Below are positions 4,396 through 50,135 of a stretch of DNA of 52,921 nt, in pieces. Source of the DNA: Kiritimatiellia bacterium (GTDB lineage Bacteria > Verrucomicrobiota > Kiritimatiellia > CAIQIC01 > Lenti-01). The position numbers and the translations under genes are program-made. Under the pieces are notes generated by a model. That model had not been told where the DNA came from. It made no database searches and saw only the letters and a program-made list of their open reading frames with translations. Where the stretch lies: assembly GCA_017458625.1 (NCBI GenBank), contig JAFTAH010000152.1, forward strand, positions 1 through 52,921, given 5' to 3'. Each line of letters begins with the position of its first letter. Position 1 is the stretch's first letter.

Positions 4396-7563
<3,168 letters not shown>

Positions 7564-29809: not shown

Positions 29810-29833
29810 GCCGTAATGCCTCTTGCGTGGGAC

Positions 29834-32709: not shown

Positions 32710-32737
32710 TTATTCACTCATGTGGTAGGGAACATAT

Positions 32738-33172
32738 TCATGATCCGTAAGGGGTGGGTGGGGCTGCGGCAAGCTGTGGGGCATCAGATGAAGACCGGCC
32801 GGCCTTCCCGCAGGAGAGGGCTTCGATGACGCGTTGCTGGCTCTCGATGATGGAGAGGAGGCGGGAGACCTCGGCATCGCGGACTGCGCCGCCGGTGCTG
32901 ACGGTGGAGTGGTTCGCCGCCACGGACCCGCCCGAGGCCGTCAGAGAGACGCCGGTGGAAGGCTCGTCCGTCAGGCCGAGAAGCCAGTCGGAGGACACGC
33001 CAGCGCTTTCGGCAATCTGGCATAAAGTTCTCAGGTCAGGTTCGCGTTCGCCAGTCTCATAACGCGAATAGGAGCCTTGTTTCAGTCCTAGTTTTTTCGC
33101 GAATTTCCCTTGATTTTCCTTGCCGCGCAACAATTTCAGTCGCGCCAAAAACGGGGCAAAATATTTTTTCAT
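32738..33172 (-). CDS. CI-like phage repressor (Xre HTH)
   Basis: This 144-residue protein has an N-terminal Xre helix-turn-helix at about 8-62 (GKFAKKLGLKQGSYSRYETGEREPDLRTLCQIAESAGVSSDWLLGL). A Ser/Ala-rich linker and a short helical end (VSRLLSIIESQQRVIEAL), perhaps for dimerisation, follow. No LexA-like self-cleaving protease is present, so induction cannot use classical CI cleavage. Its ribosome site (GGAG) lies inside the first operator-like repeat upstream, and it is divergent from the Cro-like gene. Confidence 0.83.
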   Translation of the reverse strand: MKKYFAPFLARLKLLRGKENQGKFAKKLGLKQGSYSRYETGEREPDLRTLCQIAESAGVSSDWLLGLTDEPSTGVSLTASGGSVAANHSTVSTGGAVRDAEVSRLLSIIESQQRVIEALSCGKAGRSSSDAPQLAAAPPTPYGS

Positions 33173-33174
33173 TT

Positions 33175-33219
33175 TTTCTCCATTTTGGTATTGACGCTTT
33201 CTCCACTTCGGTATATTCT
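33175..33219. promoter_or_regulatory. Divergent operator/promoter region between CI-like and Cro-like genes
   Basis: Two direct copies of TTTCTCCAyTTyGGTAT (33175-33191 and 33198-33214) are spaced 23 bp apart, about two helical turns. The first contains the palindrome CCA-TTT-TGG. TTGACG (33191-33196) with TATTCT 17 bp on (or TATATT 15 bp on) makes a rightward promoter overlapping both copies. The left copy covers the repressor's ribosome site. Confidence 0.72.
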
Positions 33220-33261
33220 TCGTCTCGTTACGGGCAACAAGTCACACGATAGAAGGCTACC

Positions 33262-33537
33262 ATGAAAGGCGGTATGATGCAAGAAGCGACAACGGGGCGG
33301 GGCGAGGTTCAGCAGGTGCGGAGGGTGATCTGGACCGGGGTCGGCGCAGCGGCTGCTGCGGCGCATGTCACGACGGCGCACATCAGCTATGTGCTGCGCG
33401 GGGAGCGTCCGGGGAGCGCGAAGGTGTGGGACGCCATCGAGGCGGTCGGGGTGCGGAACGGGCTGACGGGGAGGCTGGCGAAGAGGCCGCGGCGCGCGGG
33501 GCGCGGGGCGAAGCCGGTTGAAAGGTTGAAAGGTTGA
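33262..33537 (+). CDS. Cro-like small HTH protein
   Basis: This 91-residue protein has a likely helix-turn-helix (VGAAAAAAHVTTAHISYVLRGERPGSAKVWDAIEAVG) and a basic C-terminus. Being the first gene right of the operator region and divergent from the repressor, it is the natural Cro candidate. The last residues VERLKG-stop are encoded by the heptad array that follows. A GAAGG ribosome site precedes the ATG. Confidence 0.65.
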   Translation: MKGGMMQEATTGRGEVQQVRRVIWTGVGAAAAAAHVTTAHISYVLRGERPGSAKVWDAIEAVGVRNGLTGRLAKRPRRAGRGAKPVERLKG

Positions 33538-33560
33538 AAAGTTGAAAAGTTGAAAGGTTC
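33516..33560 (+). repeat. GTTGAAA heptad array
   Basis: About six 7-bp units (GGTTGAA AGGTTGAA AGTTGAA type) sit at the end of the Cro-like gene and supply its stop codon, TGA. The array ends in GGTTCCGAAG shortly before the ribosome site of the next gene. Confidence 0.8.
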
Positions 33561-33614
33561 CGAAGAACGGGACGACGAAACGACGAAATGAGACAAGAGA
33601 GAGAGGAGAAAGAG

Positions 33615-34418
33615 ATGAGCTGGACGCAAGTGATGATGCAGAGGCCGAGGTTGCTGAGGCGATTCGGGGATGTCGTGATCGACGTGAACGAGATCGTGAT
33701 GGTGCAGAACAATTCGGTGTGGCTGCGCACCGAAGGCGGAGCGCTGAAATGGTATGGCGTCGGTGGTGAGGCCGCCGACGCCATTCGGAGCTACTTTACT
33801 CCGGCTTCTGAGCGCAAGCACGAACAGTCTTCAGGCACTGCTGGTACAGTGCAAGAATCCTGTCGTTGTCAGCATTCTGATCGTTCTTCGTCAGAAGAAT
33901 CCGCAGAAGCTCAAGAGCGACTTCAAGATCGGTCATGCGTGGTCACCTCCTCTCCGGCGGAAGGGTCCGCCGGAGGGGAGGATGGCACGGGGGCGGAAGA
34001 GGGAGCAAGAGAGATGGCCGAGGAGGTGGGTTTTTGTGGCGAGAATGTAGAATGCAAGGTGGCTTGCATCCTCGAAGATGGAGTTCCAAGCGGGTTCTTC
34101 CTGGAAAAAGAATTCACCCCGCGCGTGTTTGCCCTGCATCAGCTTGAGGAGACGGGGGACATCAAAAAGACCATCGATGATTTGAAATCGATGGCGGTCA
34201 GATCGCCTCACAACTATTACGACTGTGGCGATCAGGTCATTTTCCACAAGGGGCTGCCTCACCCCTATAACGACGACAAATGTTGGGAGGCTGCCAAGTG
34301 GTTGGATGAGAACGCGGAGCGTCTGACGCTGATTCCGGGCAAATGCACTCGGGTTCGCCTCCCTAACGGCAATATCTGCCGGGAGTTGTTGAAGGGGTAT
34401 AAATGCTTGAAAGGTTGA
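33615..34418 (+). CDS. Phage early protein, possibly a fusion across an antisense gene
   Basis: This 267-residue frame has an N-terminal segment (about 1-60: RRFGDVVIDVNEIVMVQNNSVWLRTEGGALKWYGVGGEAADAIRSYF) like a small beta-rich phage protein. A low-complexity Ser/Glu-rich middle (about 60-135) follows, then a C-terminal domain (about 136-267) with several Cys. The middle coincides with a convincing small gene on the opposite strand (33796-33936), so the frame may be two genes joined by chance rather than one protein. The ATG at 33615 has GGAG upstream. The stop TGA is in a heptad repeat. Function unknown. Confidence 0.5.
   Translation: MSWTQVMMQRPRLLRRFGDVVIDVNEIVMVQNNSVWLRTEGGALKWYGVGGEAADAIRSYFTPASERKHEQSSGTAGTVQESCRCQHSDRSSSEESAEAQERLQDRSCVVTSSPAEGSAGGEDGTGAEEGAREMAEEVGFCGENVECKVACILEDGVPSGFFLEKEFTPRVFALHQLEETGDIKKTIDDLKSMAVRSPHNYYDCGDQVIFHKGLPHPYNDDKCWEAAKWLDENAERLTLIPGKCTRVRLPNGNICRELLKGYKCLKG
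33796..33936 (-). CDS. Small antisense ORF with a perfect ribosome site
   Basis: This 46-residue helical protein (MTDLEVALELLRILLTKNDQ...) ends ALYQQCLKTVRACAQKPE. On the minus strand the ATG is preceded at 6 nt by GGAGGTGA, an ideal Shine-Dalgarno sequence. It lies entirely inside the plus-strand frame 33615-34418, where that frame is low-complexity. No family recognised. Confidence 0.55.
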   Translation of the reverse strand: MTDLEVALELLRILLTKNDQNADNDRILALYQQCLKTVRACAQKPE

Positions 34419-34426
34419 AAAGTTCC
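34406..34426 (+). repeat. Short GTTGAAA heptad array
   Basis: Three units (CTTGAAA, GGTTGAA, AAGTT) cover the stop codon of the preceding gene and end in GTTCCGAGGAGG, the ribosome site of the next gene. Confidence 0.7.
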
Positions 34427-34439
34427 GAGGAGGAGAGAG

Positions 34440-34718
34440 ATGAGCGAGGATGCGGTTGAGTATGAGGCGGGAGTGGCGGAGCCGGAGTGGGAGGAGGGCG
34501 ACACGGCGAAAGGCGTGGCGTCGGAGGTGGCGGACCTGCGGAAGGCCGCCGAGAGGCTGGTGGCCCTCGCCGCCGGCGCGACGGCGGAGGCCGACGAGCG
34601 GATCCGCGAGGCCCAGGAGCTGCTGGCCGAGGCCGAAACCGTGAACGCCTGGGCGGACCGCGTGGAGAGGATGCTGACGGTGCATGAGACGGTTGAGCGC
34701 GCGCAGGGCGCGGGTTGA
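34440..34718 (+). CDS. Small acidic coiled-coil protein
   Basis: This 92-residue protein is rich in Ala/Glu, with a long helix likely to form a coiled coil (ASEVADLRKAAERLVALAAGATAEADERIREAQELLAEAETV). No enzymatic motif. GAGGAGGAGAGAG precedes the ATG. Its stop codon TGA is the first unit of the next heptad array. Function unknown. Confidence 0.6.
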   Translation: MSEDAVEYEAGVAEPEWEEGDTAKGVASEVADLRKAAERLVALAAGATAEADERIREAQELLAEAETVNAWADRVERMLTVHETVERAQGAG

Positions 34719-34747
34719 ACAGTTGAAAGGTTGAAAGGTTGAAAGGG
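34713..34747 (+). repeat. GTTGAAA heptad array
   Basis: About five units (GGTTGAAC, AGTTGAAA, GGTTGAAA...) begin at the stop of the preceding gene and end 10-15 bp before the ribosome site of the next. Confidence 0.8.
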
Positions 34748-34765
34748 CCGGAGAGGAGCGACGGG

Positions 34766-35110
34766 ATGATCACGCGGGAAGAGATCGAGATGATTGCGAC
34801 GGCGGTGGTGGAACGGCTGCGGGCGGGCGGCGGCGTGGGCGGCGCGGTCGCGTCGGGGGCAGACGAGATGCTGTCGGTGGACGAGGTTGCGGAGCGTATG
34901 GGGGTGACGCGGGGGCGGGTGTACCAGCTGCTGCATGACGGGGAGCTGCCGGGGGTGCGGATCGGGAAGCGTCAGCTGCGGGTGCCGGCCGGCGCTGCGA
35001 TGCGGGCGGTGGCCGGAGCGCAGGAGCGGCGGGTGAAGCTGGCGCGGTGGAAGAAGGGCCGGAAGGAGCGCGAGGCGCTGAAGGCGGCGGCGGTGGCGGT
35101 GCCGGGGTGA
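34766..35110 (+). CDS. Excisionase/MerR-like HTH DNA-binding protein
   Basis: This 114-residue protein has a central HTH_17-type domain at about 34-75 (MLSVDEVAERMGVTRGRVYQLLHDGELPGVRIGKRQLRVP), the form used by excisionases and small phage regulators. The C-terminal region is basic. It could assist excision or control early genes; the sequence does not choose. GGAG lies upstream, and the stop is joined to a heptad array. Confidence 0.75.
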   Translation: MITREEIEMIATAVVERLRAGGGVGGAVASGADEMLSVDEVAERMGVTRGRVYQLLHDGELPGVRIGKRQLRVPAGAAMRAVAGAQERRVKLARWKKGRKEREALKAAAVAVPG

Positions 35111-35173
35111 AAGGTTGAAAAGTTGAACGGTTGAAAAGTTGAAAAGTTGAACGGTTGAACGGTTGAAAGGTTC
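35106..35173 (+). repeat. Long GTTGAAA/GTTGAAC heptad array
   Basis: About nine 7-bp units alternate GTTGAAA and GTTGAAC with A or G separators. It starts at the stop of the HTH gene and runs to GGTTCTGGAGAGAGGAG, the next ribosome site. It is the longest such array in the window. Confidence 0.85.
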
Positions 35174-35192
35174 TGGAGAGAGGAGTGAAGCG

Positions 35193-35393
35193 ATGATGGC
35201 GATGGTGAACGTGGGCGCGGTGCTGGCGGAACGGGCTCGGAGGCAGGCGGAGATGGCGCGGAAGGAGGAGGCCAGGAAGCAGCGGCGTCGGGACATCGAG
35301 GATGCGGTGGCGTTCGCGGTGGCGCTCGGGCCGGTGGTGTTCTTCGCGGTCGCGTTCGTTTACGGGGCGGTGAAGTTGTGGCTGGGGCTGTAG
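35193..35393 (+). CDS. Small single-TM protein
   Basis: This 66-residue protein has a basic amphipathic N-terminal half (AERARRQAEMARKEEARKQRRR) and one C-terminal membrane helix (AVAFAVALGPVVFFAVAFVYGAVKLW). AGGAG precedes the ATG. Function unknown. Confidence 0.55.
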   Translation: MMAMVNVGAVLAERARRQAEMARKEEARKQRRRDIEDAVAFAVALGPVVFFAVAFVYGAVKLWLGL

Positions 35394-35845
35394 GCCCTGC
35401 CCACGCAATGGAATTAAGCGATGATGAACGAGAACTTGAAAGGGCTGCCGTCCGTGGGGTTCGCATCATTCCCCTGTCCAACAGCCATTCAGACGCCGCC
35501 TTACGGACGGGTGGCGGCGTCGCTTTCCCTTCCCCGAAGGTTCGGGGTTGGCCTCGCGGAGGCGCAAGTGCAATCCGCAAGGACATGGCGCGGAAGAACA
35601 ATCGTGGTTCCTCTGTGCGATCGCGCCACTAGGGCTCCCCGCGGACGGAGTGTCCGATGTCCGCATCCTTTTTGTGCGCGCCGTGGCCGACCGGGAACGA
35701 GACATGCCCGGCGGTGGCGAGCTGAGCAATTCAGTGACGTGGTGTCCTTTCACGTGCGGCGCGCACATTTTGATTTCCGCCGCGGGTGCGGCGGGTGAAC
35801 GAGAACGAAACGAACGAACTGAACGAACGAAGGAAAGGAAGCGGG
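35394..35845. other. 452-bp gap with hairpins, no clear gene
   Basis: A perfect 9-bp-arm hairpin GACGCCGCC...GGCGGCGTC (about 35491-35524) is followed by GCTTTCCC. GAACGAA-like tandem motifs stand at about 35795-35830 before the next gene. Short open frames exist but none has a credible ribosome site or domain. Confidence 0.5.
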
Positions 35846-36271
35846 ATGAACGCGACAATGGAGAGGACACGGGAGATGAAGGAGGCCTGGATGGAGGAGC
35901 ATCAGGGGGGCTGGTGCGACGGGACGCCCGCGGCGGAGGGGCTCTACAAAGGGGCGAAGGTGATCAATGTATTCGTGGGGCTGGGGATGCGGCGGAGGAA
36001 GTTCCAGTCGCAGGAGATCGAGGAGGTGGACCTGGTGGTGGTGCGGCTGGGTTGGCGGGACGGGGCCGGGGAGCCGTATCGGTATGAGACGGGGCCGATG
36101 AAAATCAGCTCGTCGCCGAGGAGCGCGCTGTGCCGCTTCCTGCGGGAGCTGCTGGGGCGGGAGGTGCGCGGGATCGTGCGCCCTGAGGGGCTGCGCAAGC
36201 TGAAGGGGATGCCGTGCCAGGTGACGGTGGGGGAGCGGCGCCGGGTCATTTCCGTGGTGAGGGCTTGGTGA
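35846..36271 (+). CDS. Phage early protein, hypothetical
   Basis: This 141-residue protein is beta-rich in the middle (INVFVGLGMRRRKFQSQEIEEVDLVVVRLGWRDGAGEPYRYETGPMKISSSPRSALCRFLREL) and ends with KLKGMPCQVTVGERRRVISVV. The layout resembles phage proteins predicted to have an OB fold and bind single-stranded DNA, but I cannot confirm this. GGAAAGGAAG lies before the ATG. It precedes the methyltransferase block. Confidence 0.55.
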   Translation: MNATMERTREMKEAWMEEHQGGWCDGTPAAEGLYKGAKVINVFVGLGMRRRKFQSQEIEEVDLVVVRLGWRDGAGEPYRYETGPMKISSSPRSALCRFLRELLGREVRGIVRPEGLRKLKGMPCQVTVGERRRVISVVRAW

Positions 36272-36317
36272 GGATGAATGAGGAGAGAGCGATGATGGGG
36301 AACGAGATTGCAAACAC

Positions 36318-36356
36318 GGCTGCCGGACAGGGACGTTCTTTCCGTCCTGTTCAGCC
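36318..36356 (+). terminator. Hairpin between early genes
   Basis: GGACAGGGACG pairs with CGTCCTGT around a TTCTTTC loop, flanked by GGCTG/CAGCC. No strong T-run follows, so it could be a weak terminator or an RNA-processing hairpin. Confidence 0.4.
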
Positions 36357-36413
36357 CCAGCGGGGCGGGGTGTCCGTGCGGAGCCCCGCACTTTTGGTGG
36401 CAAGGGACGGAGG

Positions 36414-36620
36414 ATGGACGCCGTGAAGCTGGGCGTGGTGTGTCTGCTGGGGGCCGGGTTCCTGTTTGGCTGGTTGGCGGCGGAGGGCGCGTTCGCGGTC
36501 ATCGAGTCTCACTGGCTGGAGCGGATCGAGGCCGCCGAGGCCCGCGCCGCACGCGCCGAGGAATGGGCCGAGGTCGTCGAGGAGGAGGCCAGGATGTGGG
36601 TGGCGGAGAGGGAGAGATGA
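36414..36620 (+). CDS. Small membrane protein upstream of the methyltransferase (spanin/holin-like shape)
   Basis: This 68-residue protein has one N-terminal membrane helix (VKLGVVCLLGAGFLFGWLAAEGAFAVI) and a charged helical C-terminus (LERIEAAEARAARAEEWAEVVEEEARMW). The shape fits many small phage membrane proteins, but the position among early genes argues against lysis. The stop TGA overlaps the methyltransferase ATG (ATGA). Confidence 0.6.
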   Translation: MDAVKLGVVCLLGAGFLFGWLAAEGAFAVIESHWLERIEAAEARAARAEEWAEVVEEEARMWVAERER

Positions 36621-37930
36621 GACGGACGTGCATCAACACCGTGGACCTCTTCTGCGGGGCCGGCGGAGCCAGCACCGGGATGGAGCTTGCCCTGGAAAGG
36701 CTGGGGCTTGTCCACAAAGGGCTCGCCATCAATCATTGGCAGGTGGCCGTGGACACCATGAAGGCGAACCATCCGGCCATCGACACGAAGCAGATGTCCG
36801 TCGAGGAGGCCGTGCCCGCCGACCTCGTTCCGGGCGGGGTCGTGGACCTGCTCTGGGCTAGTCCGTCCTGCACGCACCACTCCAGGGCGAAGGGCGGGAA
36901 GCCACGTAGCAACCAGCTCCGAGCGCAGCCTGAACTGATCCTGACGTGGCTTGACCAGCTTTTCGTCCGCCGCATCATCATCGAGAACGTCCCCGAGTTC
37001 GTCCAATGGGGGCCGCTGGGGCGCGACGGGCGGCCTCTCAAACGGAAGGAGGGGGCGTGCTTCGCTGCGTGGGTGGAGGGCATCCGTGCGCGGAACTACG
37101 AGGTGGAGTGGCGGATCGTCAACTGCGCCGACTATGGAGACGCGACGAGCCGGAAGCGGTTCTTCCTGAAAGCCGTGAGGAAGGGGTGCGGGCGGATTCG
37201 GTGGCCGGAGCCGACGCACGCGGAGAATCCGGAAACGGACCTTTGGGGCAAGAAGCTCAAGCGGTGGCGCGGAGTGAGGGAGTGCCTGGACCTGGAAGAC
37301 CTGGGGCGGAGCATCTACGGGCGGAAGACGCCTCTGTCCGAAAACACGTTGCGGAAGATTGCCGTCGGCATGGCGCAATACAACGGGATTTTCCTGATGG
37401 ACATGCTGGGGACGGACGGCAGCGAAGCGGACTACGCGCGGCGGTGCCACGGGCTGGAGGAACCTTTGCCGACCCAACACGCCGGGGGCAACCGTTGCGC
37501 CGTCGTCCGTCCGTTCATCGTCAGACTGAACCGGAATTGTTTTGCGGAAAGCGTTGACGAGCCTCTTTTCGCGGTGACGGCGGGCGGACAGCACCACGTT
37601 TTGTGTTCGCCGATGGTGCTTGACCATTTCCGCAACGGAGAGGTGACGGATGGGCGGGAGCCGCTTGGCGCGCAGACGACGCACGACCGTTTTTCGGTGG
37701 TGACGCCGGTTGTCGTGAAGGACGGGGACGGGCTTCCGCGGCTCCCGGACGGGCGGTATCTCGACATCCTCATTCGGATGCTCAAGCCGTCCGAACTGGC
37801 CGCCGCGCATTCGTTCCCGGAGGACTACAAGCTGACGGGGAACAGGACGGAACAGGTCAAGCAGATCGGGAACAGCGTGCCCGTCCGGACGGCGGCGGCC
37901 ATGTGCGAGGCGGACTTGAAATGCGCATGA
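36617..37930 (+). CDS. C5-cytosine DNA methyltransferase
   Basis: This 437-residue protein transfers a methyl group from AdoMet to cytosine C5. It has motif I DLFCGAGGAS at about 10-19, a catalytic-loop segment WASPSCTHHS at about 81-90 (Pro-Ser-Cys instead of the usual Pro-Cys), motif VI IIENVPEF at about 117, SRKRFF (motif VIII) and QIGNSVP (motif X) near the end. No restriction partner is adjacent, so it is probably an orphan phage methyltransferase that protects phage DNA from host restriction. It is coupled to the small upstream membrane gene. Confidence 0.93.
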   Translation: MRRTCINTVDLFCGAGGASTGMELALERLGLVHKGLAINHWQVAVDTMKANHPAIDTKQMSVEEAVPADLVPGGVVDLLWASPSCTHHSRAKGGKPRSNQLRAQPELILTWLDQLFVRRIIIENVPEFVQWGPLGRDGRPLKRKEGACFAAWVEGIRARNYEVEWRIVNCADYGDATSRKRFFLKAVRKGCGRIRWPEPTHAENPETDLWGKKLKRWRGVRECLDLEDLGRSIYGRKTPLSENTLRKIAVGMAQYNGIFLMDMLGTDGSEADYARRCHGLEEPLPTQHAGGNRCAVVRPFIVRLNRNCFAESVDEPLFAVTAGGQHHVLCSPMVLDHFRNGEVTDGREPLGAQTTHDRFSVVTPVVVKDGDGLPRLPDGRYLDILIRMLKPSELAAAHSFPEDYKLTGNRTEQVKQIGNSVPVRTAAAMCEADLKCA

Positions 37931-37991
37931 TTTCCGGCGGGCGTCCGCCGGGGAAGAGAAACAAAAAGAAACGAGAGAGAGAGGAGAGAGG

Positions 37992-38417
37992 ATGAGCGAA
38001 GAGAGGGACGGGATGTACGCGAAGGAAGATGAGAGGGTGGAGGGAATCGAGAGGGAGATGATGGCCGTCGCGGAACTGGTGGAACGCAACGAGGCGGAGA
38101 CGACCGTCGCCCAGGAACGCCAAAGCCGTGCTTCGGAGTTGCGGGGTTTTGCGGCGCGTATCGGCGCGGCGCGGAGGCGTGAGGCGCATGCGCTTGATAT
38201 CGCGAAATGGCGCGAGTGCCTGGACTTTTCGTCGCGCGCCCACCGCTCCGGCACCAGAATCTACAACATCATCAGAAGCGTCGGAAGCGGACGGCTGACG
38301 GCGGACGCCGCCCTGCATCAACTGGTGGAGGACTACCACGACTTGCGCGAGCTGGGCAAGGCCATAAGCGATTTTGCCTGCACGCTGAGGAAAGGAGGCG
38401 AGGGATGGCCGGAATGA
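37992..38417 (+). CDS. Hypothetical helical phage protein
   Basis: This 141-residue, mostly helical, charged protein (REMMAVAELVERNEAETTVAQERQSRASELRGFAARIGAARRREA) has no recognised domain. AGAGAGAGGAGAG precedes the ATG at 37992. It overlaps the next gene by 13 bp. It belongs to a run of tightly packed small early genes. Confidence 0.55.
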   Translation: MSEERDGMYAKEDERVEGIEREMMAVAELVERNEAETTVAQERQSRASELRGFAARIGAARRREAHALDIAKWRECLDFSSRAHRSGTRIYNIIRSVGSGRLTADAALHQLVEDYHDLRELGKAISDFACTLRKGGEGWPE

Positions 38418-38782
38418 ACGTATCCGGGAGCCTCCTCGGAAGCGGCATCGTGGTGCTGTCGTTGAAGGAGTACGAGGCGCGGGTGAAGGAGCTCGACTAT
38501 GCGTTCGAGCAGTTGAACGCGCATGAGGCGCAGAGCCGGCAGATGGCCGACGAAATCAAGGAGATGCGCGGCGAAGTCGAGGGTCTGAAACAAGACAAGG
38601 ACGCGACTTCCGACTACCTTGTTTCGTGCTTCGAGGCGCTGACCAAAATCAAGGCGATCGCCCAGGAAATCCTCGGCGCCGTGTCGGCCAGATACATGCA
38701 CGGAAAGGCGGCCGAAATCGAAAAGCTCTGTGACGACGGTCTCTTGAACCGGATCGAGAACAAGGAAGGAGAAGAAGGATGA
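38405..38782 (+). CDS. Hypothetical coiled-coil phage protein
   Basis: This 125-residue protein is predicted to be coiled coil in the middle (LKEYEARVKELDYAFEQLNAHEAQSRQMADEIKEMRGEVEGLKQDKD). The family is unknown. AGGAGGCGAGGG lies before the ATG at 38405. It overlaps the preceding gene and the next by ATGA-type overlap (38779-38782). Confidence 0.55.
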   Translation: MAGMNVSGSLLGSGIVVLSLKEYEARVKELDYAFEQLNAHEAQSRQMADEIKEMRGEVEGLKQDKDATSDYLVSCFEALTKIKAIAQEILGAVSARYMHGKAAEIEKLCDDGLLNRIENKEGEEG

Positions 38783-39411
38783 GCTTGAAGGATGACCGGG
38801 AGAGGATTCTGGCGCGGCTGGGGAAGCTGAAGGCCCTGGCGGATTTCGGGGCGGCCGGGGAGCGGGAGAATGCGAAGGCCGCCATGGAAAGGGTCGCGGA
38901 GAAGTATGGAATCGACCTGGACAATCTGAACGAGGAGAAGGAGACCGATTACGTGCTCGAGTTCAAGAGGGGGTGGCGGCTGGACCTGATCCGTCAGCTT
39001 GTCGGCCTGGGGAGGATCGAGTGGCATGGGTCCCTGGATGCGCCGCATTGCAATATCTATTTGCGCAGGCAGGGCGGGAAGGTCGCCTATTACTTCGTGC
39101 GCTGCACCGCGGCGCAATGGACGGAGCTCCGGGCGAAGTTCGACATCCTGGCACGTGATTACGAGAGGCAGCTGAGGCTTTTCTTCCGGGCCTTCCTGGA
39201 AGCGAACGACCTCCTTGTCCCCAGTGCTCCCGACGGCACTAAGCCGTCCGCGCAGGAGATCGCCGACGCGATGGATGCGCTGTCGATGGCGCAGGGGATC
39301 AAGAAGAGCTCGGTGCGCAAGCAGATCACAGCAACGAGGGGGCTGCTGGCGGAGGAGGGCGGCACGGCGGCCGCCCGGCAAAACGGCGACGGCGAGAAGG
39401 GAGTGGGATGA
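38779..39411 (+). CDS. DUF2786-like phage protein
   Basis: This 210-residue protein begins like DUF2786 (ERILARLGKLKALADFGAAGERENAKAAMERVAEKYGIDLDNL). A central mixed region follows with a basic segment typical of its C-terminal extension (VAYYFVRCTAAQWTELRAKFDILARDYERQLRLFFRAFLEAN). Function unknown. It is coupled to neighbours by 4-bp overlaps at both ends. Confidence 0.7.
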   Translation: MSLKDDRERILARLGKLKALADFGAAGERENAKAAMERVAEKYGIDLDNLNEEKETDYVLEFKRGWRLDLIRQLVGLGRIEWHGSLDAPHCNIYLRRQGGKVAYYFVRCTAAQWTELRAKFDILARDYERQLRLFFRAFLEANDLLVPSAPDGTKPSAQEIADAMDALSMAQGIKKSSVRKQITATRGLLAEEGGTAAARQNGDGEKGVG

Positions 39412-39707
39412 TGAGCGATTATGTTTTCACGATCGGCGAGAAGGATGAGTTGGGCTTCCGGGAGGTGAAAGCAGAGAGGGTGAATCCATGCCCGCTGTGT
39501 GGCGCGAAGCATGAGGACTACCACACACGCAATGTCTGGATATATGCGGTCAAGAGAGGCTCCTACTATACGGCCGGTATAAAGTGCATGAGCTGTGGAC
39601 TCAATATTGAACGGTGCACGGAGGATTTGCAGGGCGGGTCGTTCGAGGAATCCATCAGGATGGTCTTGTTTGCCTGGAACAAACGGGCACAGGAAGGAGG
39701 CGAGTGA
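39408..39707 (+). CDS. Lar-like restriction-alleviation zinc ribbon
   Basis: This 99-residue protein has two CxxC pairs, CPLCG (about 28) and CMSCG (about 64), followed by a conserved ending ESIRMVLFAWNKR. That is the pattern of Lar/zinc-ribbon phage proteins (...CPFCG...C..CG...A...WN.R). Lar moderates type I restriction in some phages; that role here is inferred. It is notable next to a host type I system in the same window. Confidence 0.72.
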   Translation: MMSDYVFTIGEKDELGFREVKAERVNPCPLCGAKHEDYHTRNVWIYAVKRGSYYTAGIKCMSCGLNIERCTEDLQGGSFEESIRMVLFAWNKRAQEGGE

Positions 39708-40030
39708 TGGGTGGAATGAGGTCGATTGGATGCCACATTGACGAGGCGGACCCGAACGTCCTGGTCGTCGCTGGGCTGGAGGGCGAGGTGAGGTATGAGT
39801 TTTCGACGGCGGTTGACGCCGCGAAGGCGGATGCTGCCGTGACGCGCGCGATGTTGGCGCTAGATCTCGCCCTCCTCCTCGAAGCCGGCGGAGCGGTGAA
39901 GGTGGGCCAGCCCGTGATCGGTCGCATGTGCGCGAACTGCGGTTCGCCAAGGAATCTGTGCGACGAACCGACCCGGACGGTGATGCACTTCTGCGAGAAC
40001 TGGACGGAGAAGAAGGAAGGGGGAGAGTGA
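39707..40030 (+). CDS. Hypothetical protein with Cys motif
   Basis: This 107-residue protein is mixed alpha/beta with MCANCGSPRNLC near the C-terminus, a possible half zinc site, then HFCENWTEKK. The family is unknown. Its ATG overlaps the preceding stop (TGATG), and its stop TGA overlaps the next ATG. Confidence 0.55.
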   Translation: MGGMRSIGCHIDEADPNVLVVAGLEGEVRYEFSTAVDAAKADAAVTRAMLALDLALLLEAGGAVKVGQPVIGRMCANCGSPRNLCDEPTRTVMHFCENWTEKKEGGE

Positions 40031-40877: not shown

Positions 40878-41650
40878 GCCAGCTGATTCAGTGGCCGAGG
40901 GCGAAGTACTGGGACAAGCCTTGGAATCCGGTGATCGGGTGCAAGCCCGTGTCTCCTGGGTGTGCCAATTGCTATGCAAGGGCGTTGGTCACGGGGCGGT
41001 GGAATTTGACGGGAATCTGTAGCCCGGATTTCACCCCCACATTCAAGCCAAAGAGCAAGATTCCGAAGCACGGCGTGATATTCTGCGGCAACATGACCGA
41101 CTTGTTCGGGGAGTGGGTGCGGACCATGCAAATTTTCGACTGGTTCTCAGAAATGTGGACCCATGGAAAGTGCGGCCCCGAGCCCAATCCTGCCACCTAT
41201 CTTTGGCTCACAAAGCGCGCTGGCAGATTGGGAGATTGCGTCTCCGACTACACGGAATGTCCAAACGCCTATTTCGGCGTCACGGCGGAGAGCTCGGGAT
41301 GGTTCGAGAAACGCATGTATGCGCTGGCATCGTCGTGCGCCGACATAAAGAAGGCAAGATGGTGGCTGTCCTGCGAGCCGCTTCTTGGGCCGATATGCCT
41401 TGCTCCCTGGACGAGACTTTTCGGCTGGGTCGTGGTGGGCTGCGAGAGCGGGCCGCGGCGGCGGCCGTGCAAGGTGGAGTGGGTGGAGAGCATCGTGGAG
41501 GAGTGTCGGAATGCGGGGGTGCCGGTGTTCGTGAAGCAGCTCGACATCGGCGGGAGGTGCGTGACGGACATCGAGAAGTTTCCGGAGCATCTGCGGATCC
41601 GTCAGTGCCCTGGTCGAAGAAGGGAAAGGAGTAGATATGCCGGTGAATAA
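40874..41650 (+). CDS. DUF5131 / phage Gp37-Gp68 family protein
   Basis: This 258-residue protein has the characteristic start W(N)PVIGCKPVSPGCANCYA, a Cys cluster like that of radical-SAM-related proteins. FCGNMTDLFG, the Trp-rich block YLWLTKRAGRL, WWLSCEPLLGPI and VVVGCESGPRRRP follow, all typical of the family. The function is unknown; some members sit with methyltransferases in phage genomes. ATG overlaps the preceding stop. The C-terminus overlaps the next gene by 14 bp. Confidence 0.9.
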   Translation: MSQLIQWPRAKYWDKPWNPVIGCKPVSPGCANCYARALVTGRWNLTGICSPDFTPTFKPKSKIPKHGVIFCGNMTDLFGEWVRTMQIFDWFSEMWTHGKCGPEPNPATYLWLTKRAGRLGDCVSDYTECPNAYFGVTAESSGWFEKRMYALASSCADIKKARWWLSCEPLLGPICLAPWTRLFGWVVVGCESGPRRRPCKVEWVESIVEECRNAGVPVFVKQLDIGGRCVTDIEKFPEHLRIRQCPGRRRERSRYAGE

Positions 41651-41852
41651 GAATAGGCCCGTGGGGCTGCGGTACGGGACATCGAGGAATGGGCGGCGCT
41701 GGTGGGTGTATCTGGGGACGGAGGTGCTGCATGAGGGGCGGGCGATGAACCGTCGGAATGCGCGGCAACGTGCGAAGGCGTGGATGGCGGACTGGCTGGC
41801 GGCGGAGGACCGGCGGTATCCGCCACAGGAGAAGAAGGAGGATAATCGATGA
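41637..41852 (+). CDS. Small basic protein, possibly AP2/arm-binding-like
   Basis: This 71-residue, strongly basic protein (GLRYGTSRNGRRWWVYLGTEVLHEGRAMNRRNARQRAKAWMADWLAAEDRR) has strand-strand-strand-helix order, the pattern of integrase arm-type or AP2-like DNA-binding domains. It ends four bases inside a gene for a recombinase catalytic domain that lacks such an N-terminal domain, so the two could act together. AGGAG precedes the ATG. Confidence 0.55.
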   Translation: MPVNKNRPVGLRYGTSRNGRRWWVYLGTEVLHEGRAMNRRNARQRAKAWMADWLAAEDRRYPPQEKKEDNR

Positions 41853-42478
41853 GTTCGATGGTGCCGTTCACGCGGGAGGAGCTGCGGGCGATCGGGGCGA
41901 CGTTCGCGGGGGGCACGAGCCTGGACAAGCGGGACCGTGCGCTGTTCGCGCTTGGTGTTTGCAGCCGGTGGCGGATCAGCGAGATGCTGGCGCTGCGGCG
42001 GCGGGACCTCCTGGACCAGGACGGGAAGGTGCGGCGGCATATCGAGATGCCGGGGCGGTTCACGAAAACGCAGAAGGCGAGTCGTCTGGACATCGGGGAG
42101 CACCTGGTGGGGATTCTGGCGGCGTGGCTGAAGGAGTGCGAGGCGTGGGGGTGCTGGCGGAGGGATGATCCGGCGTTTCCGAAGGAGGGGGCGCGGGTGG
42201 CGCTGGGTCGGAAAGCGGCGTGGAGGATGGTCAAGCGGCGGTGCGCGATGGCCGGGGTGCCGCAGGACCGCCACGGGACGCATAGTTTCAAGAAGACGGC
42301 GCTGGCAGTGGTCTACGAGCACTGGGTGGAGAAGGGCGACGCCGACGCGCTGCGGAAGACGCAGGCGTGGAGCGGCCATGCGAGCCTGGCGCAGCTTGAG
42401 GCGTATCTACGCGAGCTGCCTGGCGGCGTGTATTCGGTGGGGCAGGAGCTGGCGGCCGGAAATGCGGAGGAGCTGTGA
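41849..42478 (+). CDS. Tyrosine recombinase catalytic domain (second, not at the att site)
   Basis: This 209-residue protein covers only the catalytic half of a tyrosine recombinase. First Arg region is LGVCSRWRISEMLALRRRDL. The second box reads HGTHSFKKTALA, where HxxR appears as HxxK. WSGHASLAQLEAYL supplies the last His and the Tyr. No core-binding domain is present, and the small basic gene just upstream may substitute. It is in the early region, far from the attachment site, so it could be for resolution or regulation rather than integration. It overlaps neighbours by ATGA/GTGA. Confidence 0.78.
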   Translation: MSSMVPFTREELRAIGATFAGGTSLDKRDRALFALGVCSRWRISEMLALRRRDLLDQDGKVRRHIEMPGRFTKTQKASRLDIGEHLVGILAAWLKECEAWGCWRRDDPAFPKEGARVALGRKAAWRMVKRRCAMAGVPQDRHGTHSFKKTALAVVYEHWVEKGDADALRKTQAWSGHASLAQLEAYLRELPGGVYSVGQELAAGNAEEL

Positions 42479-42711
42479 GCAAGCTGACGTTTTCGACGAA
42501 GGAGGCTGCGGAGTTCGTGGGGATGGGCGAGGCCTATTTCAGGAGCTACGTGCGGAGGGGTTATGTGAGGAAGAAGCGGGGCTGCCATGACAACAACTGG
42601 CAGTTCACGCGGAAGGAGCTCGAACGGTTCGCGGAGGACCGCGTGAGCGTGGACGAGGAAGCCGGCGACGGGGAGGACGGGGCCGACGGGACGGACGAGG
42701 GGAAGGGTTGA
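42475..42711 (+). CDS. HTH protein, excisionase-like
   Basis: This 78-residue protein (GTG start overlapping the recombinase stop) has an HTH (FSTKEAAEFVGMGEAYFRSYVRRGYVRKKRGCHDNNWQFTRKELERFAEDR) of the excisionase/MerR type and an acidic Gly/Asp-rich tail. Coupling to the recombinase suggests a directionality factor or partner. The stop TGA is supplied by a heptad array. Confidence 0.7.
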   Translation: MSKLTFSTKEAAEFVGMGEAYFRSYVRRGYVRKKRGCHDNNWQFTRKELERFAEDRVSVDEEAGDGEDGADGTDEGKG

Positions 42712-42757
42712 AAGGTTGAACGGTTGAAGGGTTGAACAGTTGAAAGGTTGAAGGGTT
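42706..42757 (+). repeat. GTTGAAA/GTTGAAC/GTTGAAG heptad array
   Basis: Seven or so 7-bp units begin at the stop of the HTH gene and end in GGGTTCTGGGGGTTGGAGAG before the next ribosome site. Confidence 0.8.
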
Positions 42758-42785
42758 CTGGGGGTTGGAGAGAGAGAGGAGAGAG

Positions 42786-43685
42786 ATGAAGCTGCGGAAG
42801 GTGACAATCGAGATCGATGTGGCCCAGATTCTGGCGGACGCGTCGAACGTGGAGAAGGGACGGCAGTTCTCGAAGCTGCTGCGGGCGATGAGCTGCGGAG
42901 AGGCGAAGGCGGACGATCCGGCGTGGGTGCGGGAGGCTGTCGGGAAGGCCGCTGCGTTGCAGCGGGCGCACCTGCGAGGGGCCGAGGCCGCGAACAAAAG
43001 GCGAAGGGGATTTTGCGCTAAGGGCACAACTCCTAGCGACGCGCACAGCGTGACGCAGAGCGATGCGCACAGCGTGACGCAGAGCGTGACGCACAGCGAT
43101 GCGCACAGCGTGACGCAGAGCGTGACGCACAGCGATGCGCACAGCGTGACGCACAGCGTGACGCAGAGCGACATGCAGAGCGACACGCACAGCGTAGCGC
43201 ACAGCGTGACGCAGAGCGATACGCACAGCGTGACGCACAGCGTGGAAACGCCCAAAAAGGCCGAAAATCTCACGCGCGCGGGGTCTTTATTGAGCGAAAA
43301 CTCTAAGAATCTCTCTATCTCCCCCTTGAATAGTCCCCCTTCCTCCCTTCCGGGGATTGGCGAGGTCGGGGCGGGGGCGTCGGAGCCGTCGGTGGCGACG
43401 GTGCGCCAGATGCTGCAAGACCGGCTGTCGGTGCTGTTCCGGCGGCGTCCGACGACGCGGTGGAACGACGCGGAGAGGAAGGCGCTTGGCGAGATTGCGA
43501 AGCGTCCTGGGGTGGAGGAGGAGCTTGCGGAGATCGAGAGGCTGTATCGGAGCGGGTACAAATATCGCCGGAAGGACATCAAGACGCTGTTGAACAACTG
43601 GACTACTGAGCTGGACCGTGCGGCGGGATATTTTGGCCTGCGCGAGCCCAAGCGGAGTTTTGAGGAGCAGCTGGAAGATGCATGA
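42786..43685 (+). CDS. Phage replication-organiser-like protein with tetrapeptide repeats
   Basis: This 299-residue protein has an N-terminal part (about 1-75) like small phage replication proteins. It has 17 tetrapeptide repeats of the type S-(D/V)-(A/T/M)-(H/Q) at about 84-151. A C-terminal helical domain (about 200-299: TVRQMLQDRLSVLFRRRPTTRWNDAERKALGEIAKRPGVEEELAEIERLYR) resembles DnaD-like replisome organisers. The next gene is a DnaC-like ATPase, the usual partner. Its stop overlaps the next start by 8 bp. The replication role is inferred from this pairing. Confidence 0.65.
   Translation: MKLRKVTIEIDVAQILADASNVEKGRQFSKLLRAMSCGEAKADDPAWVREAVGKAAALQRAHLRGAEAANKRRRGFCAKGTTPSDAHSVTQSDAHSVTQSVTHSDAHSVTQSVTHSDAHSVTHSVTQSDMQSDTHSVAHSVTQSDTHSVTHSVETPKKAENLTRAGSLLSENSKNLSISPLNSPPSSLPGIGEVGAGASEPSVATVRQMLQDRLSVLFRRRPTTRWNDAERKALGEIAKRPGVEEELAEIERLYRSGYKYRRKDIKTLLNNWTTELDRAAGYFGLREPKRSFEEQLEDA
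43035..43238 (+). repeat. 12-bp coding minisatellite (17 units)
   Basis: Seventeen copies of AGCGTGACGCAG / AGCGATGCGCAC variants encode SVTQ/SDAH-type tetrapeptides inside the replication-like gene. The units mix in no fixed order, as expected for expansion and contraction by slippage or unequal exchange. The opposite strand is also open through the tract. Confidence 0.9.
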
Positions 43686-44352
43686 GACGAGGACATTACT
43701 GGCAGCGGGGCTGTCGCTGAAGACGGATCCACGGCGTCGGGAATTGGCGCCGGCGGTGATGGAGGAGCGGCTTCGGAAGGGGCGCGCGGCGCTACGTCGG
43801 ATGGGGTACGAGCTGACGGATGGGAACAGCGAGGCGGTGGATGCGATGCTGCGGTTTGCGGCGACGTTCTGCGCGGCGAAGCGAGGGGAATGCGACCTGC
43901 CGAGGCGCGGGGTGTACCTGTTCGGGCCGCCAGGCGTGGGAAAGAGCACGCTGGCCGAGGCTGTGGCGACGCGGATGTGCGGGATTCGCTGGAAGTCGGC
44001 GGCGGAGCTGGCGCGGCGGTACGCGGAGCGTCCGGCGTGGGCGCTCAACATCCTCGACCGCTGGGGATGGGACGACTTCACCGAGGTGGAGGAAACGCAC
44101 CTGGTGATCGACGACATCGGGAACATCGGCTCGTCGGCGCATTTCGGGAGGAGCCTGGACGGGGCCGAGATCATCCGGATGCGGCACGAGCAGCTGGTGC
44201 GGCATGGGACGCTGACGATTCTGACGGGTAACCTCGACGGCAAGGACGCGGTGGCGGCCTGGGCTGGCCCGCAGGCGTCGCGTCTGGCCGAGATGTGCGA
44301 TTGCGTCCAGATCGAGGGCATCGACCGCCGGAACGCGAGGAGGAGGCGGTGA
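43678..44352 (+). CDS. DnaC/IstB-like AAA+ ATPase (helicase loader)
   Basis: This 224-residue protein has Walker A GPPGVGKST at about 83-91, Walker B HLVIDDIGNIG at about 141-151, sensor-1-like TILTGNL at about 180 and a C-terminal Arg-rich segment. The order fits the DnaC/IstB/phage helicase-loader family. Preceding gene looks like a replisome organiser. It should load a replicative helicase at the phage origin. The ATG at 43678 overlaps the preceding stop; the stop overlaps the next GTG. Confidence 0.85.
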   Translation: MHETRTLLAAGLSLKTDPRRRELAPAVMEERLRKGRAALRRMGYELTDGNSEAVDAMLRFAATFCAAKRGECDLPRRGVYLFGPPGVGKSTLAEAVATRMCGIRWKSAAELARRYAERPAWALNILDRWGWDDFTEVEETHLVIDDIGNIGSSAHFGRSLDGAEIIRMRHEQLVRHGTLTILTGNLDGKDAVAAWAGPQASRLAEMCDCVQIEGIDRRNARRRR

Positions 44353-44711: not shown

Positions 44712-45093
44712 ATTGGTGCCGAACTACCGTTGAACGGTTGTTGAACTCCCTTGTTCCGTCGCCGGCCCGAAAAGGGTGGAACAAAACAGGCAAAGAACGA
44801 TTTGATGGGGGTCAAGGGGATGAAATGGTGGGGAAAACGCGCGAAAAGGGCCAAAAACGTCCAAAAAATGCCAGCGTAAAGAAATGGGCGACGTGCATTT
44901 TCGTCAATGCTGTATTGACAAATCCGCATTTTTGAAAGTCCAAAAAGGGGGTATTTTTGTACGCCTTTGGATTCGCGGGCGCGAAACGCGCGTAATATGG
45001 AAAGGCGAAAAATGGCCTTCCGAGAAAAAAGTGAAAAAAAGACTTGACGCGGCGTGTGGGGATGTGAGGGTCGTGCACGACAAGGGTTTGACG
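44712..45093. other. 382-bp gap between replication and virion modules
   Basis: It contains a decayed heptad motif with palindrome CCGTT-G-AACGG (44727-44746), a purine-rich tract and TTGACA at about 44917. The frame of the portal gene is open upstream but the sequence is low-complexity. No terminase gene is present although many phages carry one here. Confidence 0.55.
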
Positions 45094-47460
45094 ATGGCAG
45101 ATTTGATGGCAATAGTCGCGCCGGTTGCGAAAGAGCCGGAGGATCCGCTGGTTCTGGCGGGAGCGCCGGCACTGGACGGGTCGGACGCAGCACCGACGCC
45201 GGACGAGCTGGCGGCGGACGCGATCAGCGCGGACCTGGCGGGCCGGTTCCGTGCGGCGCAGGATTCGCGAAAGGAGATCGAGGCGTCGATGCTGGCGGAC
45301 CAGCGGCGGCGTCTGGGACAGTACTCTCCCGAGAAGCTGGCGAAGCTGACCAGGCAGGGCGGGAGCCGCGCGTTCGACCGCATCACGGAAGCGAAGTGCG
45401 CGGCGGCGGAAGGTAAGCTGGTGGAGATGCTGCTTTTGAGCCGCGGCCATCCGTGGCACGTGGAGGCTACTCCGATCCCCGACCTCACTCCGGAGCAGGA
45501 GGAGGAGATCGCGATGGAGCTGGCGCGGGAGATCGGGGAGGAGGCGCAGCAGTCGCCGATGGGCGGGGAGGATGTGGAGGCGCTGTTCCTGGAGCGCTGG
45601 AACGACGCGAAGGCGCGCTACGAGCGGAGGGTCAAGGAGAAGGCCGATGCGAGCGCCGCGCGGATGGAGAAGCAGATTTCGGACTACATGGAAGAAGGCG
45701 ACTGGCAAGGCGTCCTCGCGGATTTCATTTACGATTTTGTAACCTATCCGGTCGCGGGCATCATGGGGCCGATTCCGTACACGACGATGCGCGAGAAATG
45801 GACGGCGGACGGCGTGACGTGGGAGGATGACATGCAGGTCGGGTTCGAGCGCATGGACCCGTTCGGCATCTATCCGGCCGCCATGAGCGCGGAAGCTGGC
45901 GACGGGGACTTCTTCTACCGTCGCCTCATCCCCGACGACGCGGCGCTGGAGCTCGGGCGGATGAGCGGGGTGATTCCCGGCGCGTTCGAGAAGGCGTATG
46001 CGGCGCACGGCAAGATCGGGGACGGCGACGTGGACCAGCAGATTGCCGAAAGCGAGAACAACCAGGGCAAGACCGGCGACGTTTTCAACCCGGACAAGGG
46101 GCACGAGCTGGTGTACTGGTGGCACCGCATGACGCGGAAGGAGGCCGCCGGGGCCTGCCGCCGGGAGCTGGAGGAGGGGGAGCAGCCGGACGAGCGCATC
46201 CCGTACTACGGTCTCATGCTCAACGGCATCATCATCACCTGCGTGGAGAACTGGGACAGGAGTGGACGTCCGCAAGTCCACCTTTGCAGCTTCGAGAAGA
46301 AGCCGGGGACCATCTTCGGGGAAGGGATTTCGTCGCTGATGGCCGGGCCGCAGGCGAACCGGAACTCCAACCGCCGGGCGCTGAACACGAACAGCGACAT
46401 GAGCGCGCAGCCGGCCCGCGTGGTAAACAGCGAGCGGTTGCAGAATCCGGAGGCCGCGGGGACGGCGTTCCCCGGTCAGGTGTTCCTCGTGCGTAGCAGC
46501 GTGATTCCCGGCGACAACCAGCCCGCCGTCTCGTATCTGGAGACGCCGAACAACACGGGCGCGATCCTCGCCGCCATCAAGCAGACGGACCAGGACGCGG
46601 ACGACATCACGGGCGTGTTCCCGCAGGCCTACGGCAGCAACCGGCAGGTCGGCCCGGCGCAGACGCTGGGCGGCCTGCAGCTGCTGCGGGAGGACCAGGC
46701 GACGCGGCTGAAGCTAGGCGTCGTGCATATGGAGAAGTGCCTGCGGAGCTTCTTTACGGCGATGGCGCGGTTCATCATGGTGTTCGGGCCGCGGGATTGC
46801 TGGGGCGACCAGAAAGTCACGGTGCAGGGGCCGATTAAGCTGTATTTGGAAAGCGCGGCGTCGGACGTTTACGTGGCGGACATGGAGCTGCTCAAGACCT
46901 ACAAGGAGGAGATGGGCATTGCCATCCGGCCAGAGGCTTTCGTGCGGCTGGCCCGGAAGGTTTTCGAGACGCGGCGGGAGGATCCCGCGGACTACATGCT
47001 GACGGACGACGAGCTCCGCCAGGAGAAGGAGCGCATGGAGCAGGAGGCGGCGGCTTCCGCCGTCCCGCCGCAGGGCGCGGAGGTTCCGCCGGAAGGCGGC
47101 GAGGAGGCCGGCATTCCGCCCGGCGCGCCGCCGCTGGAGGACGTTCCGCCGCAGCAGGGCGCGGAGCTGCCGCCGGAAGAGGGCGCGGAAGCCCCCGCGG
47201 AGCCGCCCCCGCCGCAGGAGGATCCGCGAATGATCCAGGCGCAGGCGGCGCTTCTCCGCGCGCAGACGGCGGACCGGGCGCAGGCCGCCCGAGAGGACCT
47301 GGAACGGCGCAAGCTGCTGCTCGAGGAGACGAAGCTGGTGAGCCTGCTGCGCCTAGCACAGCGGAAGAACGCGGCGGAGGCCGCGGAACGCCGTAGCCGC
47401 ATCGAGGCGTCCACGTTCGGTGCGCTGGGGACGGTCGGCGGCACGGGAGGAGCGGCATGA
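45094..47460 (+). CDS. Portal protein (P22-like)
   Basis: This 788-residue protein would form the head vertex ring through which DNA passes. Long helical N-terminal region, then the portal core: IYDFVTYPVAGIMGPIPYTTMREKWTADGVTWEDDMQVGFERMDPFGIYPAA and PGTIFGEGISSLMAGPQANRNSNRRALNTN, DDITGVFPQAYGSN, all consistent with P22/podovirus portals. The C-terminus has a Pro/Glu-rich region (about 650-710) and a final coiled coil (about 715-775, MIQAQAALLRAQTADRAQAAREDLERRKLLLEETKL). The ATG at 45094 was chosen because upstream sequence is not portal-like. ATGA overlap with the next gene. Confidence 0.85.
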   Translation: MADLMAIVAPVAKEPEDPLVLAGAPALDGSDAAPTPDELAADAISADLAGRFRAAQDSRKEIEASMLADQRRRLGQYSPEKLAKLTRQGGSRAFDRITEAKCAAAEGKLVEMLLLSRGHPWHVEATPIPDLTPEQEEEIAMELAREIGEEAQQSPMGGEDVEALFLERWNDAKARYERRVKEKADASAARMEKQISDYMEEGDWQGVLADFIYDFVTYPVAGIMGPIPYTTMREKWTADGVTWEDDMQVGFERMDPFGIYPAAMSAEAGDGDFFYRRLIPDDAALELGRMSGVIPGAFEKAYAAHGKIGDGDVDQQIAESENNQGKTGDVFNPDKGHELVYWWHRMTRKEAAGACRRELEEGEQPDERIPYYGLMLNGIIITCVENWDRSGRPQVHLCSFEKKPGTIFGEGISSLMAGPQANRNSNRRALNTNSDMSAQPARVVNSERLQNPEAAGTAFPGQVFLVRSSVIPGDNQPAVSYLETPNNTGAILAAIKQTDQDADDITGVFPQAYGSNRQVGPAQTLGGLQLLREDQATRLKLGVVHMEKCLRSFFTAMARFIMVFGPRDCWGDQKVTVQGPIKLYLESAASDVYVADMELLKTYKEEMGIAIRPEAFVRLARKVFETRREDPADYMLTDDELRQEKERMEQEAAASAVPPQGAEVPPEGGEEAGIPPGAPPLEDVPPQQGAELPPEEGAEAPAEPPPPQEDPRMIQAQAALLRAQTADRAQAAREDLERRKLLLEETKLVSLLRLAQRKNAAEAAERRSRIEASTFGALGTVGGTGGAA

Positions 47461-49163: not shown

Positions 49164-50135
49164 ATGCCTGCTATCGAACGTGCAGCCGGCCACCCCAACT
49201 GGGTTGGCAAGCTCATCCCGGAGCATCTGTATGCTCCTCTCATCGACGCCCGCATCTACGCGGCGACGTGCCTGCCCCAGATCACCACCTCCAAGTACAA
49301 ACGCGAGGAGGCGATGGCGGTCAAGAACATCGGCGCGACCGTCCACGTGCAGCGCGCGCCCGTCATCCACACCCAGAAGTACGTCAAAGGGGGCGAGATC
49401 GAGATCGATCCCTCCATCGGCGACGGCTTCGAGCTGACCATCAACCGGGCCAACACCTGGAACAAGTTCCACGACCTCATCGACGCCACGGCCTCGCCGC
49501 ACAAGAATCTCACCAGCATCGAGCTCTCCGCCGCCGGCGACACCGAGGCGGTGGACATGGAGACCGAGTGCTTCGGCGAGTGGGCGAACTTCCCGGACGC
49601 GAACAACGTCGGCAACACCGCCGGCTTCCAGACGCACCAGCTCGTGCTGGGCACCATCGACCATCCGGTCATCCTCTCCAAGGACAACGCAGTCAGCTAC
49701 TTCATGCAGTTCGGCACGCTGTTCGACGAGGTGAACCTGACGGACCGCAACGGCACGCTGTCCGTCGTGATGCCGCCCGCCGCGTCCCTGCTGTTCCGCC
49801 AGTCGGCCCCGGTGATCGACTCCAGCCAGTCCGGCGTGAAGTCCTCGCTGCAGACCCGCCTGTTCCGCAAGAGCTATGAAGGTATCGGCGACCTGTACAC
49901 CTCGACGCTGCTGCCCTCGCCCGCGTCCGGCGTGTTCCCGATCCTCGCCCTCCGCGCGGACGGCCTGGCGTTCTTCGCGAAGAACCTGCAGACCCGCGCG
50001 AACCGCGAACTGGAAAAGACGTTCGGCACGCTCTCCAGCGGCGTCTACGTCTACGACTGGAACGTGATTCGGCCCGAGGCCATCGCCATCGGGTACGTCA
50101 AGCTGTCCATGCCGACCATCACCACGGAGCAATAA
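49164..50135 (+). CDS. Major capsid (coat) protein
   Basis: This 323-residue protein is of the P22 coat / HK97-fold kind in my reading: N-terminal PEHLYAPLIDARIYAATCLPQITTSKYKREEAMAVKNIGATVHVQRAPVIHTQKYVKGGEIEI, then GFELTINRANTWNKFHDLIDATASPHKN. Composition is even, with no low complexity. Position after the scaffold and the pattern of neighbours support the call. A GGAGAT ribosome site precedes the ATG. A 9-bp-arm hairpin follows the stop. Confidence 0.8.
   Translation: MPAIERAAGHPNWVGKLIPEHLYAPLIDARIYAATCLPQITTSKYKREEAMAVKNIGATVHVQRAPVIHTQKYVKGGEIEIDPSIGDGFELTINRANTWNKFHDLIDATASPHKNLTSIELSAAGDTEAVDMETECFGEWANFPDANNVGNTAGFQTHQLVLGTIDHPVILSKDNAVSYFMQFGTLFDEVNLTDRNGTLSVVMPPAASLLFRQSAPVIDSSQSGVKSSLQTRLFRKSYEGIGDLYTSTLLPSPASGVFPILALRADGLAFFAKNLQTRANRELEKTFGTLSSGVYVYDWNVIRPEAIAIGYVKLSMPTITTEQ

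Follow-up and report, generated by a model that had tools for sequence, protein, structure and literature searches.

The window analysed here is one whole contig (C111) of 52921 bases from a genome of 2.69 Mb, assembled in 165 contigs and 80% complete. Its first ∼27 kb look chromosomal and include a 96-bp tandem repeat at 4466-4724 (2.7 copies); the remainder, from ∼27.2 kb to the contig end, is a prophage whose right end is missing (Table 1). An integrase on contig C78, considered as that missing end, shared stretches of at most 16 bases with positions 24000-40000 of the window. The original prediction held that the prophage already possesses a complete integrase, and this is borne out by the full-length enzyme next to the MraY-like gene, in which both PF00589 and Phage_int_M are recognized; at its usual HxxR position this integrase reads, by eye, YGTRHTF, with Tyr where the first His would stand. 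Within the prophage, a three-gene operon carries a second site-specific recombinase of this temperate phage and is situated upstream of the DnaC-like gene and away from the terminase, unlike most of its relatives. Further downstream, the ORF at 42765-43685 contains a 12/36-bp tandem repeat (43042-43244), and its protein shows a repeated HSVTQSD-type stretch.

Table 1. Features of the prophage and of the three-gene operon, in positions of the window.
Feature	Position	Strand	Basis or remark
MraY-like gene	25984-27225		Adjoins the full-length integrase
Full-length prophage integrase	27235-28557	-	PF00589 (33 bits), Phage_int_M (22.3 bits); translation; ORF counted from its first start codon, the actual start probably being internal
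Repressor-like genes	32741-33172		Prophage
DNA methyltransferase	36308-37927		Prophage; followed by a phrog_2045 protein, then the three-gene operon
71-aa basic orphan protein	41637-41852	+	First operon gene; ORF, AAGGAG, coding base composition
209-aa tyrosine recombinase, catalytic domain only	41849-42478	+	PF00589, phrog_216, XerD/XerH, fold matches, alignments
Codon AAG, Lys148 at Arg-II of the HxxR box	42290-42292	+	Alignment with 34 comparators
78-aa HTH_17 DNA-binding protein (excisionase/MerR-like)	42475-42711	+	GTG start overlaps the recombinase stop
DnaC-like loader	43618-44349		Prophage, after the operon
Portal	44884-47457		Prophage
Major head protein	49164-50132		Prophage

That three genes lie at 41637-42711, each overlapping the next by 4 bp, proved exact; the junctions read ATGA and GTGA, and good ribosome-binding sites in the form of Shine-Dalgarno-like stretches accompany the genes for the 71-aa (AAGGAG), 209-aa (AGGAGG), and 78-aa (GGAGGAG) proteins. 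Third-position G+C contents of 0.79, 0.88, and 0.88 in the three ORFs in order, against second-position values of 0.51, 0.50, and 0.44, support real coding, and there is almost no intergenic space beside them.

The middle gene was correctly recognized from the outset as encoding a recombinase catalytic domain. The 209-aa protein matches PF00589 (E 1.4e-8, 35.2 bits against a gathering score of 27.1) and PHROG 216 (E 3e-18, profile positions 59-223 of 301), aligns with residues 128-277 alone of XerD, and has just 41 residues before Arg-I. An AlphaFold model built from an alignment of eight sequences (mean pLDDT 66.9) found XerH and Cre as its best fold matches (E about 1e-5), and XerA was also matched. 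The protein is thus a tyrosine recombinase catalytic domain alone, which shares fold and active site with P1 Cre, XerC/D, and XerH but lacks the core-binding domain that these enzymes possess. The accessible part of a published classification distinguishes simple (core-binding plus catalytic domain) and complex enzymes and does not describe a catalytic-only class there (PMC8138268); the 209-aa protein, with no core-binding domain, falls outside the simple class.

Phages and small plasmids commonly carry catalytic-only recombinases of 180-230 aa with no gene for a partner domain, and stand-alone recombinases of the same layout, 180-219 aa long, were found on small cyanobacterial plasmids (see below) and in phages of Streptococcus, Acetoanaerobium, Sporosarcina, Cellulophaga, Erythrobacter, and Synechococcus. 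Searches of the viral_contigs, phages (E 1e-3), and genome_contigs sets yielded no close relative of the window recombinase; in the phage database, raising E up to 10 gave four weak matches, and the nearest named relatives share ∼29% identity with it. A tree of 34 rows gave it no supported place. The PHROG 216 profile proved unsuitable for marking out the short family, having matches in 385 of 387 genomes, and a profile search over the class found matches in 333 of 345 genomes, nearly all of those listed being long Xer-like frames.

The related phage genes are located between replication and terminase genes, with a separate integrase also present. Streptococcus phages Javan565 and Javan623, Acetoanaerobium phage ANDSL2_ph1, Sporosarcina phage Lietuvens, and Cellulophaga phage phi46:1 encode 'integrases' of 180-186 aa that have the catalytic residues in common with the window protein and likewise miss the core-binding domain, and Javan565 and ANDSL2_ph1 have, as here, another annotated integrase in addition to the small gene. 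Contig L044 similarly combines a small gene with a second recombinase (PF00589 in a 371-aa protein, 9247-10359). In contrast to the window protein, the five phage proteins have Arg at Arg-II, show low identity to it (no match at E 1e-3), and, in all but phi46:1, are encoded close to the terminase. The best named matches are integrases of 182-219 aa from small cyanobacterial plasmids (Calothrix, Fischerella, Chondrocystis, Annamia, and Synechococcus PCC 7502), which reside on plasmids rather than in a prophage and whose annotation lists no overlapping downstream gene. These five plasmids measure 10-40 kb and two of them have ParA genes nearby; no demonstrated plasmid function of the recombinases was found in the material examined. 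Tyroviruses, phages of Bacillus, resemble the window prophage in carrying several recombinases in one temperate phage; according to the available portion of their description, they have three tyrosine recombinases, for which roles in integration and plasmid-prophage resolution were suggested from sequence alone, and their gp50, compared here by that description, differs in possessing an N-terminal integrase domain and a clear site with 11-bp inverted repeats (PMC9703825).

The active site was examined in an alignment of 35 rows, comprising the window protein and 34 comparators from phages, prophage-like loci, plasmids, and FimB/FimE; L127, a truncated frame missing the active-site columns, is excluded from the Arg-II count, and L120 is identical to Javan623, so that 33 of the 34 comparators are different. 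Arg-I (R42), H145, H177, and the nucleophile Y186 are kept in all 34. At position 148 (Arg-II) all 34 have Arg, and the window protein alone has Lys, which confirms that, as predicted, the HxxR box reads HSFK. The box (H145-S-F-K148-K149-T-A-L) aligns gap-free with HxxRKT of the phage relatives and as THSFKKTAL with THSFRRTAL of the cyanobacterial plasmid relatives, in which Arg-II is Arg; a misalignment, one of two ways in which the original reading could have failed, is thereby ruled out, and the other does not apply, no normal Arg being present near K148. Lys73 is matched by Lys in 22 of 34 comparators and falls in the strand-turn where the catalytic Lys usually sits. A minus-strand relative in another genome (L046, G117) has THSMRDTF, keeping Arg-II and placing Asp at the next, usually basic, position; that genome contains at least three short recombinases of this type.

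The residues expected of a tyrosine recombinase are therefore found at Arg-I, His, His/Trp, and the nucleophile Tyr, and at Arg-II alone Lys148 stands in for the expected residue. The accessible text of Rowley et al. (2015; PMC4499138) describes a minor fraction of the family with Lys at Arg-II, which makes the window protein a variant and does not exclude it, and further reports that Cre R292K, in which the same substitution was engineered, works reasonably well both in vivo and in vitro and that Flp R308K used water as the nucleophile on methylphosphonate substrates. The HxxK of the window recombinase is unusual, not unheard of, and is by itself no sign of a dead enzyme. With a suitable residue at every catalytic position and Lys tolerated at Arg-II, the 209-aa protein is predicted from its sequence very probably still to cut and rejoin DNA.

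The third gene had been described as an excisionase-like HTH, a reading that stands; the 78-aa protein is an HTH_17 protein (E 1.2e-6, 29.1 bits against a cut-off of 27) with weak matches to the excisionases phrog_66 (E 9.6e-6) and Tn916-Xis (E 0.0018), and an HTH_17 gene is a recurrent partner of catalytic-only recombinases in the phylum. Neighbours were inspected at 14 catalytic-only loci of the same phylum, the window included, with short-frame matches (≤254 aa) in G091 (two) and G052 (one) outside the inspection. Five of the 14 (the window, L006, L010, L019, and L045) have the start of an HTH_17 gene no more than ∼150 bp downstream of the recombinase and in the same orientation; in L006 it is joined to the recombinase by an overlap of the same kind (ATGA), and in L045 the match is weak (18.7 bits, under the gathering score). 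The other nine have no HTH_17 gene closely downstream: it is found ∼0.6 kb downstream in L008/L039 and L046, a weak one lies upstream in L007, and six have none close. From 64 HTH_17 matches in 12 genomes (∼49 Mb), hand arithmetic gives ∼0.003 as the value expected by chance, which is too low inasmuch as prophages probably have a higher HTH_17 background than genomes as a whole. The genes downstream of Javan565 and ANDSL2 gave no HTH_17 match. Close behind the recombinase, L010 has a terminase large subunit (Pfam GpA_ATPase) and L008 a GP3_package gene, and in L019 a putative terminase small subunit follows it, as read from the sequence, with no Pfam match.

The P1 Cre recombinase resolves multimers. 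We propose, at a little less than even confidence, that the operon similarly encodes a minimal recombinase which, together with its coupled HTH_17 protein, resolves multimers of the phage's own DNA. A catalytic domain with Xer/Cre chemistry would be made alongside the translationally coupled HTH_17 protein, which, possibly with the small basic protein too, would supply site recognition or synapsis; sites within the phage's own genome, in its circular or replicating form, would then be recombined, which amounts to multimer resolution, and integration would be left to the separate full-length integrase. Since the active site is kept and the core-binding domain lost, site choice must come from another source, and the HTH protein translated along with the recombinase suggests itself as a candidate; resolution appears the likeliest role because integration is covered by the full-length enzyme, relatives occur on small plasmids, and the operon has its place among replication genes. 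That the recombinase is active, forms a complex with its HTH partner, and acts in resolution we infer on these grounds, and the earlier suggestion of dimer resolution or inversion can be retained as a reasonable guess. Counting against resolution are the lack of a clear inverted repeat (see below), the scarcity of intergenic space, the distance of the operon from the terminase, the low identity to named relatives, the unsupported tree place, and the 9 of 14 loci with no HTH_17 gene closely downstream; furthermore, an integrated prophage has no obvious everyday need of multimer resolution.

A second reading, which we regard as unlikely, is that Lys at Arg-II marks a weak or dead enzyme kept for DNA binding, which with the HTH protein controls the early-to-late switch. 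The HTH neighbours would suit such a regulator, as would the position of related genes in several phages at the early/late junction, just upstream of the terminase, but the window operon is not at that junction, the rest of its active site, nucleophile Tyr included, is intact, the 34 same-family comparators have a full active site, and Cre, in the accessible text of PMC4499138, tolerates Lys at Arg-II.

Escherichia coli FimB (200 aa) and FimE (198 aa) are, like the window protein, the size of a catalytic domain, with 46 and 40 residues before Arg-I, and differ from it in having Arg at Arg-II (HxxRH); they invert fimS with accessory proteins. This common layout would fit a DNA invertase that flips a prophage or host segment, a role that seems quite improbable for the window protein. 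The prophage (27200-52921) was searched for inverted repeats with 5-9 bp spacers and compared with eight shuffles. Arms of 10 bp with no mismatch gave none (0-1 in shuffles); arms of 11 bp with one mismatch gave six against 0-4, the six representing three palindromes, of which two were scored at more than one spacing; and arms of 12 bp with two mismatches gave nine against 3-11. The search for inverted repeats targeted by the recombinase, a check suggested at the outset, thus showed them at or close to the level of chance: neither a crossover-like repeat or inverted core-site pair clearly above chance nor an invertible promoter or gene-end pair was seen in the part of the prophage on the contig, and an invertase target could lie in the right end that the contig lacks.

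Arrays of the GTTGAANN octamer, among them one directly behind the operon (42699-42752), were also considered as recombinase sites and rejected, the repeat being genome-wide, with 94 matches to three GTTGAANN units scattered across many contigs of the same genome. Within the window the prophage has five such arrays, all on the + strand (the others at 28471-28516, 33517-33554, 34714-34743, and 35106-35167), and the chromosomal 27 kb has none.

It is similarly doubtful that an ordinary HxxR recombinase acquired the Lys148 codon through faulty assembly or sequencing, or through a mutation confined to one strain. A single transition (AAG for AGG) would suffice, the assembly is fragmented, and no close relative able to confirm Lys148 was found in viral_contigs, phages or genome_contigs; against this, the flanking residues fit the plasmid relatives, the frame is otherwise intact, and other members of the family have Lys at Arg-II in the portion of PMC4499138 available.

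Very doubtful, too, is the possibility that the 78-aa HTH protein serves the full-length integrase as its excisionase and is linked to the small recombinase only by coincidence. The Tn916-Xis and phrog_66 matches of this HTH_17 protein agree with such a function, but its gene overlaps the recombinase gene and is ∼14 kb from the integrase, the overlap in L006 and the close HTH_17 neighbours in three further loci argue for a partnership with the recombinase, and a second HTH_17 gene in the early region (34739-35110, 123 aa) is a nearer candidate excisionase for the full-length enzyme.

For the 71-aa protein no relative was detected in Pfam (best match DUF7677, E 0.1), PHROG or further sequence searches, and it matched no PDB sequence. 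Its low-confidence model (pLDDT 61) is strand-strand-helix, an arrangement that we take to resemble arm-binding domains, but a fold search with it returned nothing meaningful (best E 1.9), so that it matches no known arm-binding family or fold; by eye, no counterpart of the gene was seen upstream of the other inspected loci. It is perhaps DNA-binding. The original prediction of a divided recombinase, with this protein as the missing half, is not supported, given that catalytic-only relatives of the same size stand alone, that the 71-aa protein has no detectable relative, and that its model differs from the absent core-binding domain, which is helical; likewise, the proposed co-occurrence of the three genes elsewhere extends to the HTH gene, which recurs, and not to the 71-aa gene, which was found nowhere else. 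A literally split integrase, in which arm-type DNA binding by the 71-aa protein and the catalytic protein together replace one longer enzyme, is highly unlikely despite the tight translational coupling of the two genes and the basic, predicted strand-strand-helix nature of the product, as the latter has no sequence or fold match, no similar gene precedes the other inspected recombinases, and it is the core-binding domain that is lacking in a protein whose equal-sized relatives stand alone.

The window recombinase is of a kind already known, and its variant features are the Lys at Arg-II, the HTH gene in an operon coupled by ATGA and GTGA, and the orphan basic gene. Catalytic-only recombinases are found beside an integrase in many temperate phages, and in small plasmids, annotated just as 'integrase', and a literature search conducted largely outside the subscription journals returned no study of those in phages or of their role. 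The recurrent HTH neighbour offers a way to test how a recombinase that lacks the usual clamp domain recognizes its site. It is conceivable, if on balance unlikely, that the operon encodes a two-part recombinase in which a catalytic subunit without core-binding domain takes its DNA recognition from the co-translated HTH_17 protein, with Lys at Arg-II natural in the lineage. A natural Lys at this position would provide, in a wild-type enzyme, the substitution that mutants of Cre and Flp have been used to study, and, were the two-part reading true, the choice of target could be changed by swapping the small HTH_17 partner.
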